Source: Rhodococcus sp. BP22 (GTDB lineage: Bacteria > Actinomycetota > Actinomycetes > Mycobacteriales > Mycobacteriaceae). Taken from it: DNA of 64,000 bases. Positions within the stretch are counted from its first letter, which is position 1; each line of letters starts with the position of its first letter. Position numbers and translations under genes: made by a program. Below are positions 40,818 to 44,238 of the stretch, one piece after another. The notes below the pieces were generated by a model. It did not search any database. It saw nothing but the letters and a program-made list of their open reading frames with translations, and was not told the DNA's origin. The stretch is taken from the NCBI RefSeq assembly GCF_014281965.1, contig NZ_JACFTB010000002.1:372001-436000 (forward strand), read 5' to 3'.

Positions 40818-42668
40818 TCACGCCGAACCGACACTTGCCGGCTCCAACAACCGCTGAACCATGCAGTGGAGAACATCGATCCCGTCGGTCGACAGCACGG
40901 ACTCCGGATGAAACTGAACCGACGCGAATCCGGCGCCCCGCAGCGCGTTGACGCCGTGAGAATCCACCGACACGTCCACCCCTGAAATCTCTCCCGGCAG
41001 CGCGGCGAATGCGTTGTAGAAACCGAGTGTCCGACGCTCTCCGAAGAGCTCGACCTCCCGTTGAACTCCCTGCTGCGGACGAGAAAGCGCGACGACGTCC
41101 AACCCGAGAATCCGCGCGAGAACCTGGTGGCTCAGGCAGATCGCGAGTAGCGGTGCGCCGGCGTCGAGTCGAGCGCGGACGGCCCGCTCGACCGCACGAA
41201 TTCGGTGGTCGAGAACAAGGTTCGGATCCCCGGGCCCGGGTCCGCACACCAGCAGGTCGGCGTCCGTACCGGAGTATTCTTCCCATCGAAGAACCGACAC
41301 GTCCATGCCGAGGTGGCGGAGCTGATGGGCGATCATCGCCGTCCACTGATCCTCGAAATCGACGACGACCGCAGTACGGCCCAGCAGCTCGGGCAGTACG
41401 ACGAGCGGCTGCTGGTCGATCCAGAACGACGCCAGCTTGTCGTTACGCGCCGCCAACGCGTCGGCGACGCCCGGGTGGGTGTCGAGACGAACCGCGTCCG
41501 TTCCGCGTGGACGTTCCGGTTCGATACCGAGGGCGGCGAGTACGCCACCGAGCTTCGAACGTGTCTCGGCCACTTCGTGTTCGGGTACCGAGTTGCGCAC
41601 GAGGGTGGCGCCTGCCGAGATCTTCAGCTCGCCGGTAGGCGAGATCTCGCACGTGCGGATAAGGATCGGCGCATCCAGTGTGCTCACCCCGTCGGCACCC
41701 TCGAACAGTGCCAGCACGCCGGAATAGTAACCGCGACCGGTGTTCTCGTAACGCTCGATGACACGCGCGGCGTTCTCGATCGGAGAACCGGTGACGGTGG
41801 GTGCGAACATCGTCTCCCGCAGGATCTCGCGTGGATCCAGCTCACTGTCTCCCACCAGGATGTACTCGGTGTGCGTCAGATGGCCCATCTGTTTGAGGCG
41901 CGGACCGACGACGCGGCCACCCTTTTCGCAGATGCGGCTCATCATCTTCAGTTCCTCGTCGACGACCATGAACAGCTCGTCGTTCTCTTTCGCATCACCG
42001 AGAAAGTCGAGAACACCTGCGCCCGAGGGGCCTTCGACGGGATGCCGGTAGGTACCGCTGATCGGATTCATGATCGCCGTCGTACCATCGAATCCGACGT
42101 GCCGTTCCGGGGTCGCCCCCACGAGCGTGATCTGCGGTGTGTGAACGAAAAATGTCCAGTACGAACCCGATTCACCGGCCAGCAGTCTCCGGAAGATCTC
42201 GAGTCCACTGGCGATCGGATCGTCCAACTGGGCCCGAAAGTCACGGCGAATGACGAAGTTCGCGCCCGCACCCCGGCCGATCTCGTCGGTGAGCACCCGC
42301 TCCACGACCACAGCGTACGCGTCGTCATCGGGCTCGAAACGGCCGTCGAGAAGGTTCAGATCGGAGCTCGGAAGTGCGTCGAGTACCTCCTCGATACTCA
42401 GCAGAGCGTGCTCGCGGACCTGCAGGCACTGCAGGGGCGATTCGTCGTCGTGGCATACGAAACCGCGTTCGGTGACCTGCCGAAATGGGACCAGCGCCAA
42501 CACATCGGGGCCGTCGGCATACGGATTCAACGCAATGTCGGCGAGGGACGGCGCATCGGTGACATCACCGATCAGAACGTCGACACCGTGTTCGCGGCTC
42601 AGAATCGCGAACGGCGCGGAACCGGTGAGAGCCTTCTTCAAAACTTTGGAGGTCGGAGCTTCGTGCAC
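40818..42668 (-). CDS. Anthranilate synthase fusion protein (TrpE-TrpG, PhzE-like)
   Basis: A 616-residue fusion of a chorismate-binding synthase (residues about 1-420) and a glutamine amidotransferase (about 430-610). The first part has PERHVGF, MNPISGTYRHP, DEELKMMSRIC, PTVTGSPIENA and GRGYYSGVLALFE; the second has CGPGPGDP, the Cys elbow LLAICLSHQVLA and QFHPES. Such fusions make anthranilate (TrpEG) or, as PhzE, 2-amino-2-deoxyisochorismate. An upstream attenuator with three Trp codons points to tryptophan supply. The GTG at 42668 (VHEAPTSKVLKK) with GAAAGG upstream is chosen; longer frames run through the attenuator. Confidence 0.87.
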   Translation of the reverse strand: MHEAPTSKVLKKALTGSAPFAILSREHGVDVLIGDVTDAPSLADIALNPYADGPDVLALVPFRQVTERGFVCHDDESPLQCLQVREHALLSIEEVLDALPSSDLNLLDGRFEPDDDAYAVVVERVLTDEIGRGAGANFVIRRDFRAQLDDPIASGLEIFRRLLAGESGSYWTFFVHTPQITLVGATPERHVGFDGTTAIMNPISGTYRHPVEGPSGAGVLDFLGDAKENDELFMVVDEELKMMSRICEKGGRVVGPRLKQMGHLTHTEYILVGDSELDPREILRETMFAPTVTGSPIENAARVIERYENTGRGYYSGVLALFEGADGVSTLDAPILIRTCEISPTGELKISAGATLVRNSVPEHEVAETRSKLGGVLAALGIEPERPRGTDAVRLDTHPGVADALAARNDKLASFWIDQQPLVVLPELLGRTAVVVDFEDQWTAMIAHQLRHLGMDVSVLRWEEYSGTDADLLVCGPGPGDPNLVLDHRIRAVERAVRARLDAGAPLLAICLSHQVLARILGLDVVALSRPQQGVQREVELFGERRTLGFYNAFAALPGEISGVDVSVDSHGVNALRGAGFASVQFHPESVLSTDGIDVLHCMVQRLLEPASVGSA

Positions 42669-42722: not shown

Positions 42723-42750
42723 AAAAAATGGCCACCTCGAAAGGCGGCCA
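42723..42750 (-). terminator. Attenuator terminator hairpin
   Basis: On the minus strand TGGCCGCCT (42750-42742) pairs with AGGTGGCCA (42737-42729) around a TTCG loop and is followed by six U residues (42728-42723). It lies 54 bp before the synthase start codon. Confidence 0.88.
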
Positions 42751-42779
42751 CGGTTGGAAGTACGCAAAGGTGTGGGCGC

Positions 42780-42827
42780 CTAAGAGCGCCACCACCATGA
42801 ACCTGCAACGAGTAGAGGTGCGTACAT
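42780..42827 (-). CDS. trpL: Trp leader peptide
   Basis: A 15-residue frame, MYAPLLVAGSWWWRS, ending in TAG inside segment 2 of the attenuator. Three adjacent Trp codons in so short a peptide are a hallmark of transcription attenuation by tRNA-Trp charging. There is no clear ribosome binding site; a TACAGT -10-like hexamer at 42836-42841 would place the transcript start almost at the ATG, so the leader may be translated as a leaderless mRNA (inference). It begins 33 bp after the lat stop codon. Confidence 0.82.
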   Translation of the reverse strand: MYAPLLVAGSWWWRS

Positions 42828-42859
42828 GTCGAGTGACTGTACACACTCTCGAGCCCGAG

Positions 42860-44203
42860 CTAGCTCCCCATCCGAATCAGTACTCGCTCGATCGCGTCGA
42901 CGGCACGGTCCAAGTCTGCTTCGCTGATCGTCAAAGCAGGCCGGAAACGGATCGCACTACTACCGCATCCGAGCGCGAGAACGTGCTCCTCGGTGCGGAG
43001 GTCCTCGATCAAGCGGTCCCGGCTCTCGGCGTCGGGCATCGTGAAAGCGCACATCAACCCCCGCCCGCGGACCTCGGTGACCATCTCGTGCCGCGTCGCC
43101 ATGTCGTCGAGGCGACACCTCAGGTGGCGCCCCAGTGCGGCGGCGCGCTCGATGAGCCCTTCGGATTCGACGATCTCGAGTATCCGCCGAGAACGCACCA
43201 TGTCGGTGAGGTTTCCGCCCCACGTGGAGTTGATGCGTGAGGAGACAGCGAAGACGTGATCGTCGAGATCGTCGACCCGTCCTCCCGCCATGACGCCGCA
43301 GACCTGAACCTTCTTGCCGAACGCGAGCACGTCGGGGACAACATCGAGCTGCTGGAAAGCCCATGCGGTGCCGGTCATTCCGGCGCCCGTCTGTACCTCG
43401 TCGACAACGAACAACGCGTCGTACTCGTGGCACAGATCCCGAAGCTGCACCAGGAACTGCGGGCGGAAATGGTTGTCACCGCCTTCACCCTGAATGGGTT
43501 CGATTATCGCGCAGGCGATGTCGTGGGGATTCGCCTCGAAGGCGATCCGGGCCGCGGCAAGTGCGTTCGCTTCCAGCGCGTCCATGTCCACCCCACTGCG
43601 GATGTACGGCGACGGGATGCGGGGCCAATCGAATTTCGGAAACCGCGCGACCTTGTTGGGGTCGGTGTTGGTCAGCGACATCGTGTATCCCGTGCGGCCA
43701 TGGAACGCATGCTCGAAATGCAGTACCTGCGTACCCAGTGCTGGGTCGATGCCGTGCTTACCGTTCCACCGACTCTTCCAGTCGAACGCGACCTTGAGTG
43801 CGTTCTCGACGGCGAGCGCACCACCTTCGACGAAGAACAGGTGCGGCAGACGCGGGTCTCCCAGCACTCGGGCGAAGGTATCGACGAACCGCGCCATGGC
43901 CACGGTGTAGACATCGGAGTTGCTCGGCTTGTTCATCGCCGCCTGCAGCAAGTCGGCGCGGAACGCCGCGTCCGACACCAGACCGGGATGGTTCATCCCG
44001 AGCGCCGAAGAGGCGAAGAACGTGAACAGATCCAGGTACGACGTGCCGTCCCTGGCATCGACGAGCGTCGATCCCTGGCTCTTGTCGAGGTCGAGGACCA
44101 TCTCGAATCCGTCGGCGAGCATGTGGCGACCGATGATGGCATGGACGTCGTGGGCGTCGACAGTCGATGTGGCCGCTGCCGCGCGCTGCAATACCTGCGT
44201 CAT
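42860..44203 (-). CDS. lat: L-lysine 6-transaminase
   Basis: A 447-residue class III PLP aminotransferase. The family-typical start (VHAIIGRHMLADGFEMVLDLDKSQGSTLVDARDG), FHGRTGYTMSLTNTDP, the PLP-contacting VVDEVQTGAGMTG and the Schiff-base Lys in LAFGKKVQVCG fit lysine epsilon-aminotransferase (Rv3290c-like) well. It moves the epsilon-amino group of lysine to 2-oxoglutarate, giving 2-aminoadipate semialdehyde, which cyclises to piperideine-6-carboxylate. The divergent aldehyde dehydrogenase completes the path. In mycobacteria Lat rises in persistence. Start is uncertain between 44203 and 44215; 44203 fits homologue length better. Confidence 0.92.
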   Translation of the reverse strand: MTQVLQRAAAATSTVDAHDVHAIIGRHMLADGFEMVLDLDKSQGSTLVDARDGTSYLDLFTFFASSALGMNHPGLVSDAAFRADLLQAAMNKPSNSDVYTVAMARFVDTFARVLGDPRLPHLFFVEGGALAVENALKVAFDWKSRWNGKHGIDPALGTQVLHFEHAFHGRTGYTMSLTNTDPNKVARFPKFDWPRIPSPYIRSGVDMDALEANALAAARIAFEANPHDIACAIIEPIQGEGGDNHFRPQFLVQLRDLCHEYDALFVVDEVQTGAGMTGTAWAFQQLDVVPDVLAFGKKVQVCGVMAGGRVDDLDDHVFAVSSRINSTWGGNLTDMVRSRRILEIVESEGLIERAAALGRHLRCRLDDMATRHEMVTEVRGRGLMCAFTMPDAESRDRLIEDLRTEEHVLALGCGSSAIRFRPALTISEADLDRAVDAIERVLIRMGS

Positions 44204-44238
44204 AGTGCTCAACATACGCGTTAATATTCCGTTAGCAA

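Follow-up and report, generated by a model that had tools for sequence, protein, structure and literature searches.

A probable ribosome-mediated tryptophan attenuator with a putatively leaderless leader peptide precedes a fused PhzE/TrpEG-type gene in Rhodococcus

A gene for a fused chorismate enzyme lies on the minus strand of the 64,000-nt stretch of Rhodococcus sp. BP22 DNA analysed here (hereafter, the window), raising the question of whether the short sequence in front of it responds to tryptophan. A sequence-only reading had proposed a complete trp attenuator, with a Trp-Trp-Trp leader peptide, ahead of a TrpE-TrpG fusion gene. Every part of that arrangement is present on the minus strand, as listed below, and we consider the locus to be a ribosome-mediated tryptophan transcription attenuator with a probability of roughly 0.9.

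42860..44215, minus strand: upstream gene, ending 32 nt before the leader (list of open reading frames)
42836..42841, minus strand: putative −10 promoter hexamer TACAGT, separated from the leader start codon by 8 nt (sequence; conservation of TAnnnT)
42780..42827, minus strand: probably leaderless leader peptide reading frame of 15 codons, MYAPLLVAGSWWWRS, with its ATG at 42827 and its stop codon at 42782-42780 (sequence; conserved end in the genus)
42819..42825, minus strand: 5′ arm of the outer helix H0, GUACGCA, running from the last base of the AUG to the end of codon 3 (fold, RNAalifold, pair counts)
42789..42797, minus strand: three adjacent Trp codons, the putative sensor (sequence; invariant in the 14-row genus alignment)
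42786..42796, minus strand: segment 1, beginning within the Trp codons (9 of 11 pairs with segment 2; predicted in folds and by RNAalifold)
42769..42780, minus strand: segment 2, beginning at the final base of the leader stop codon (pairs with segment 1, 9 of 11, or segment 3, 8 of 9)
42760..42766, minus strand: 3′ arm of H0, UGCGUAC, between segments 2 and 3 (fold, RNAalifold, pair counts)
42742..42751, minus strand: segment 3, serving as antiterminator 3′ arm and terminator 5′ arm (folds, pair counts)
42723..42737, minus strand: segment 4 and six-U tract, predicted intrinsic terminator (10-bp stem, −17.5 kcal/mol)
40818..42668, minus strand: PhzE/TrpEG-type fused enzyme of 616 aa with a GTG start (Pfam Chorismate_bind and GATase; structure match)

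The short leader frame carries its adjacent Trp codons close to its stop codon, and the RNA around them can adopt three mutually exclusive pairings. By reading the sequence, we recovered each of the proposed helices: a 1:2 hairpin (9 of 11 pairs, 42796-42786 with 42779-42769), a 2:3 antiterminator (8 of 9 pairs, 42780-42772 with 42751-42743) and a 3:4 terminator with a 10-bp stem (42751-42742 with 42737-42728) and six U residues at 42728-42723. This predicted intrinsic terminator with its U tract precedes the gene, whose GTG start codon at 42668 lies 54 nt away, the spacing given earlier. Folded as RNA, as the sequence-only reading had suggested, 42827-42719 reached −46.3 kcal/mol, whereas 200 shuffles averaged −30.8 (sd 3.3; z −4.69, none as good). 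Rfam returned no match at the attenuator at gathering score, and its Trp_leader covariance model (RF00513) was absent from the seven matches found up to E=5, among which nothing was relevant. Taken alone, the Trp nonamer TGGTGGTGG is unremarkable (132 places in the genome versus 143 for a reversed control); the case therefore rests on the whole arrangement and its conservation, which exceed chance.

In the mechanism that we propose, RNA polymerase would start at, or within ~2 nt of, the leader AUG, and a ribosome would start on the leaderless RNA and trail the polymerase. With charged tRNA-Trp scarce, this ribosome would stall at the first Trp codons and cover segment 1, so that 2:3 would pair, the 3:4 terminator would be blocked and the fused gene would be transcribed. 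With tryptophan plentiful, a ribosome at the stop codon would cover segment 2, the 3:4 terminator would form and transcription would stop; it would stop too on RNA carrying no ribosome, on which H0, 1:2 and 3:4 would form. The attenuator would thereby very probably switch off a spare tryptophan-making enzyme whenever tryptophan is plentiful.

Modelled folds in which the ribosome footprint was masked match this standard trp attenuation logic. With the ribosome at the first Trp codon, 2:3 (−12.8) forms before segment 4 is made; with the ribosome at the stop codon, the 3:4 terminator alone remains; and the fold without a ribosome contains H0, 1:2 and 3:4. When the mask reached to 15 nt past the codon start, 2:3 was weaker for a ribosome at the second Trp codon (−8.4) and almost absent at the third (−2.8), so that the three codons may differ in their effect. 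Energetically, 3:4 (−17.5) is favoured over 2:3 (−12.4) at equilibrium, and masking segment 1 does not remove 3:4 from the full-length fold. The choice between the two must therefore be kinetic, made during transcription.

To what extent is this arrangement conserved? Among 37 genomes of the genus, 14 encode the fusion gene (E ≤ 1e-100). The Trp codons, whose conservation in related genomes the sequence-only reading had made part of its refuting condition, were kept throughout: the leader ends in GSWWWR[S/F] and a stop codon at all 14 fusion loci, each of which also has a TAnnnT hexamer and a terminator followed by 4-7 U. The 2:3 pairing retains 8-10 pairs at 13 of these loci and is weakened at L039, with only four pairs in a row. 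A covariance model (R1), built from 28 leaders and scoring ~100 first-look candidates per genome, gave a single strong match per fusion genome (E ≤ 1.7e-14 in all 14) and a best match of only E 0.011 in the other 23; since the 14 genus leaders were among those that trained it, only the absence from the 23 genomes is independent. Comparative evidence of this kind—Trp-Trp-Trp in 14 of 14 leaders, the helices and the terminator—best supports the earlier suggestion of control by tRNA-Trp charging, which would act through stalling at the Trp codons.

Beyond the genus, 109 of 296 genomes in a class-wide sample contained matches to the fusion at E ≤ 1e-60. We scanned 103 upstream regions, made up of the 14 genus loci, 21 loci of named relatives and 68 further places from the class sample, where lower-ranking ones were mostly left out. 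Scanning revealed a Trp-Trp leader frame at 74 of these homologous loci, spread over several families, and none at the remaining 29. The leader of family f21 is most like that of the window. Homologues in family f20 carry the leader MFAHSTQNWWWTAHPAAH, nearly the same as Streptomyces lividans trpL1, from which we infer f20 to be Streptomyces.

At 73 of the 74 Trp-Trp loci, a TAnnnT hexamer is located 6-8 nt before the start codon (6 nt at 10 loci, 7 at 48 and 8 at 15); a hexamer within 4-10 nt served as a guide in placing the leader start, and spacers of 4, 5, 9 and 10 were used by no locus. In shuffled upstream regions, with spacers of 4-10 allowed, the hexamer occurred on average in 1.9, and at most in 6, of 73. 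The exception, L031, has a Trp-Trp frame with no TAnnnT hexamer at 4-10 nt. Shine-Dalgarno-like matches of more than 3 nt were absent before the starts of the 14 genus leaders; across the 73 starts, such matches did not exceed 4 nt in 71 cases and reached 5 nt in the other two. In the window, the hexamer would accordingly place the transcription start site at the AUG, without a Shine-Dalgarno sequence. Fixed promoter-to-start spacing thus accompanies the attenuator across several actinobacterial families.

A leaderless leader peptide had been thought unusual, an assessment that we had to revise. Given the signature at 73 of 74 loci, leaderless translation appears to be the rule for these leaders, not an oddity, and it has been reported in several Actinobacteria (excerpts of PMC8079986 and PMC5784534). 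The S. lividans trpL1 leader, which precedes a monocistronic trpE, has been reported, on RNA-seq evidence, to be transcribed leaderless (excerpt of PMC8079986). In Corynebacterium diphtheriae, the ilvB leader is leaderless and the start site of the trp leader was not found, according to the excerpt of PMC5784534. Leaderless cysteine attenuators in mycobacteria are mentioned as cited work in an excerpt of PMC9031893, and a reference title in PMC4046766 refers to a C. glutamicum ilvBNC leader without a ribosome binding site.

Single-locus variants add to this picture. In L042, whose leader is otherwise the same as that of L007, GTG replaces ATG at the same place, 7 nt past the hexamer, which fits leaderless initiation. 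In L045, whose leader matches that of L008, the hexamer reads TAGAGT in place of TACAGT. This breaks a TGTACA palindrome and keeps TAnnnT, arguing for a −10 element over an operator.

The sequence-only reading had pointed to homologous loci as a source of compensatory base changes in its three helices. Across families, we observed some such changes in 3:4 and 1:2, as well as in the outer helix H0, but none in 2:3; within the genus, a single pair changed on both sides. Measured by its own refuting condition, that reading is thus borne out only in part. H0 joins the first three to four codons to RNA lying between segments 2 and 3 and comprises 6 bp in the minimum-energy fold, with a seventh possible. 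With ribosum scoring, RNAalifold recovered H0, 1:2 and 3:4 from Rhodococcus combined with f21 (29 leaders), from f20 (17), from the Promicromonospora group (12) and from 51 pooled leaders; on all 73 leaders H0 was shortened, and on the 10 leaders of f38 alone it was not predicted. Alignment A2 comprised 50 of the 73 leaders, leaving out f38, the Promicromonospora group and L074; RNAalifold with default scoring yielded a poor fold on it and was rejected. In the A2 structure, 86.8% of cells were paired and both-side changes affected 112 cells versus 51.1 in shuffled alignments (0 of 500 as high), a kind of count that related rows inflate. Pairs with both-side changes (9 vs 8.8) and pair types (27 vs 30.2) were no more numerous in A2 than in the shuffles.

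For H0 alone, 84.5% of cells were paired (78.9 in shuffles), 26 cells changed on both sides (11.7) and covariation was 0.177 (0.105), each unequalled in 500 shuffles. Four pairs showed both-side changes versus 2.5 (43 of 500 as high), and there were 9 pair types versus 9.5. Versions of H0 slid along the alignment paired at most 71.6% of cells. Swapping H0 arms between families had given swaps no weaker than the original in a median fraction of 0.34 in Rhodococcus and 0.014-0.19 in the other groups; because a CGCGUA core is common to the families, this test is weak, and pair counts with shuffles and slides were used instead. As for 2:3, 79.4% of cells were paired in alignment A3 (28 leaders) with no covariation, as would be expected if segment 3 must serve two partners, which provides no evidence for 2:3. 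Its computed energy was better than that of shuffled segment 2 bases for each family, with a median of 1-9 shuffles in 100 equalling it.

Since a leaderless start codon sits at the extreme 5′ end, a helix between the first codons and RNA synthesized ~60 nt further on would get in the way of a second ribosome. The partly covarying H0 might in this way close off the 5′ start codon behind the first ribosome. In E. coli, the trp leader has a self-limiting structure. More tentatively, as an idea that we hold possible but would not yet call probable, H0 would close behind the polymerase as a start lock and bar a second ribosome, leaving a single pioneer ribosome and one reading of tRNA-Trp charging per transcript, in a design widespread among leaderless trp leaders of Actinomycetia. 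If true, such a lock would account for the frequent conservation of codons 2-3 (Tyr-Ala or Phe-Ala), which the middle of the peptide does not share. A helix so close to the start suggests a simple, testable way for a leaderless leader to hold its own translation in check.

The Promicromonospora-group loci L013-L023 and L027 have a Trp leader of another form (MTS...DWWPAD, DWWPAE or DWWLAD). Here the predicted pairs include the AUG start codon itself, matched to a downstream CAU.

What enzyme would the switch control? The earlier designation as a TrpE-TrpG fusion was correct as to the fusion, since Chorismate_bind and GATase domains occupy one chain; the protein is, however, of the PhzE/TrpEG type and additional to a TrpE with the usual N-terminal domain. 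Its closest solved structure is the ADIC synthase PhzE (3r74; E 4.6e-158), PhzE-like over nearly the full length (residues 3-601 of 616). No Anth_synt_I_N (PF04715) match was reported in it, and all TrpE models among the best 25 of 42 NCBIfam matches scored far below their own cut-offs. Ten named relatives share 74-96% identity, all from Rhodococcus or Rhodococcoides. Elsewhere, the genome contains a 527-aa frame with an Anth_synt_I_N match, which we take as the usual trpE, and two trpG-type matches over the family cut-off, one of them inside a 688-aa frame that also matches Anth_synt_I_N. The window gene thus represents an extra fused chorismate enzyme, probably an additional anthranilate synthase for tryptophan. 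No frame of 6-30 residues with two Trp codons was detected in the 1560 nt scanned at the other trpE. In R. equi, a TrpEG-like gene (REQ23850), which could be of the window type or resemble the 688-aa frame, is described beside a separate trpECBA operon and trpG (excerpt of PMC2947987).

Not all fused enzymes have the leader. Those at L024-L026, L029, L030, L032, L064, L065, L068, L070 and L076 lack a Trp-Trp frame, and the ten of these 11 that are in our 50-row tree form one clade (support 100/98), which unites Nocardiaceae with second copies from f19/f20 genomes and has a Trp leader in 0 of 10 rows. The Rhodococcus rows fall outside this clade, which is possibly a secondary-metabolism branch; the scan was also negative at 9 of 9 f18 loci, at three f28 loci and at L086, an f21 locus. 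Absence of the leader is therefore on its own no sign of secondary metabolism. In each of the four genomes with both copies scanned (L085/L065, L112/L072, L087/L070, L078/L077), only one of the two carries the leader; L072 forms a very long branch and is probably a wrong-frame translation. As the tree does not settle the position of the Rhodococcus clade, we claim no gene transfer.

Could the same observations have other causes? The hairpin might merely terminate the upstream gene—which we take to encode L-lysine 6-aminotransferase—with the Trp codons accidental. That gene does end on the same strand just 32 nt before the leader, and the nonamer is frequent in the genome; a similar gene was found upstream at L003, L004, L006, L008, L011 and L012. 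Yet at L005, L007, L009 and L010 no such gene was found within 3 kb and leader and terminator persist, and Trp-Trp leader frames recur at 74 of 103 loci in several families, making this explanation highly improbable. We give just as little credence to a riboswitch or protein-binding RNA in place of a peptide-dependent switch. H0 would provide such an RNA with a compact fold, and the actinobacterial LEU element, in which the leader codons are immaterial (excerpt of PMC1262725), sets a precedent; against this, the adjacent Trp codons are kept in frame where leader length and other residues vary, and Rfam gave no match at gathering score. Attenuation could also be real and the leader translated from a transcript that starts further upstream with a normal 5′ UTR, for which read-through from the upstream gene, the hexamer-free frame at L031 and the 5-nt Shine-Dalgarno-like match in two of 73 leaders could be invoked. 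We regard this as improbable, since 73 of 74 loci have the hexamer at 6-8 nt and the 14 genus leaders lack Shine-Dalgarno-like matches above 3 nt.

A further alternative leaves the attenuator intact and concerns the product: the fused enzyme may make ADIC for a secondary metabolite rather than anthranilate, consistent with PhzE as its closest structure and with another TrpE encoded elsewhere in the genome. Control by tryptophan, on the other hand, would point to tryptophan synthesis, and the leader-free clade (10 rows, 100/98) excludes the Rhodococcus rows. The four two-copy genomes likewise have the leader on one copy and not on the other. Moreover, the PhzE-like fused enzyme of S. venezuelae is an anthranilate, not an ADIC, synthase, according to a statement and a reference title in PMC3111181. 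ADIC synthesis hence seems unlikely to us, if less remote than the explanations above, and anthranilate remains our preferred product. Although insufficient by itself, given that it is missing from all 9 f18 loci and from L086 of f21, the attenuator may be of use in separating anthranilate-making fused enzymes from ADIC-making relatives.

Attenuation before a fused enzyme has a parallel outside the Actinobacteria: the trpE(G) attenuator of Sinorhizobium meliloti has a Trp-rich leader before a fused TrpE(G). That system is alphaproteobacterial, and the model of its TrpE clade, TIGR01815, scores the window protein at 128 bits versus a cut-off of 739. Nearer by, excerpts of PMC1262725 cover trp attenuators in Corynebacterium and Streptomyces, including S. 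venezuelae, where one precedes an anthranilate synthase gene, as is probable for the window, in another genus (Lin 1998, cited therein); the enzyme there is, like ours, fused and PhzE-like (excerpt of PMC3111181). In S. lividans TK24, trpL1-trpE similarly has a Trp-Trp-Trp leader (MFAHSTRNWWWTAHPAAH) reported as leaderless and an apparently Rho-independent termination, before a trpE that is monocistronic (excerpt of PMC8079986). It differs in host, in leader and RNA sequences and in having seven residues after the Trp codons instead of two. Because the f20 leader is nearly the same as that of trpL1, this is probably the orthologous locus, as judged by leader, not protein. Like the window locus, the Corynebacterium attenuator combines a terminator with a leader that has three Trp codons, and its transcript has been seen by RNA-seq in C. 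glutamicum; unlike that of the window, it governs the trp operon and not a single fused gene, and in C. diphtheriae the leader start was not found (excerpts of PMC1262725, PMC4046766 and PMC5784534). Among the matches listed, we noticed no published report of a trp attenuator in Rhodococcus. The window attenuator is thus largely ordinary and would work in a way known from Streptomyces and Corynebacterium; what is added is the Rhodococcus member, which extends leaderless trp attenuation to this genus, and the partly covarying outer helix, itself possibly new.

The 688-aa frame (G000:C34:12450-13514; L002, L148) encodes another chorismate enzyme and has its GATase domain first, followed by Anth_synt_I_N, possibly a PabA-PabB order. 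Within the window itself, positions 1706-2266 (G000:C12:373706-374266) encode a stand-alone amidotransferase of the trpG/pabA type that scores over the TIGR00566 cut-off.
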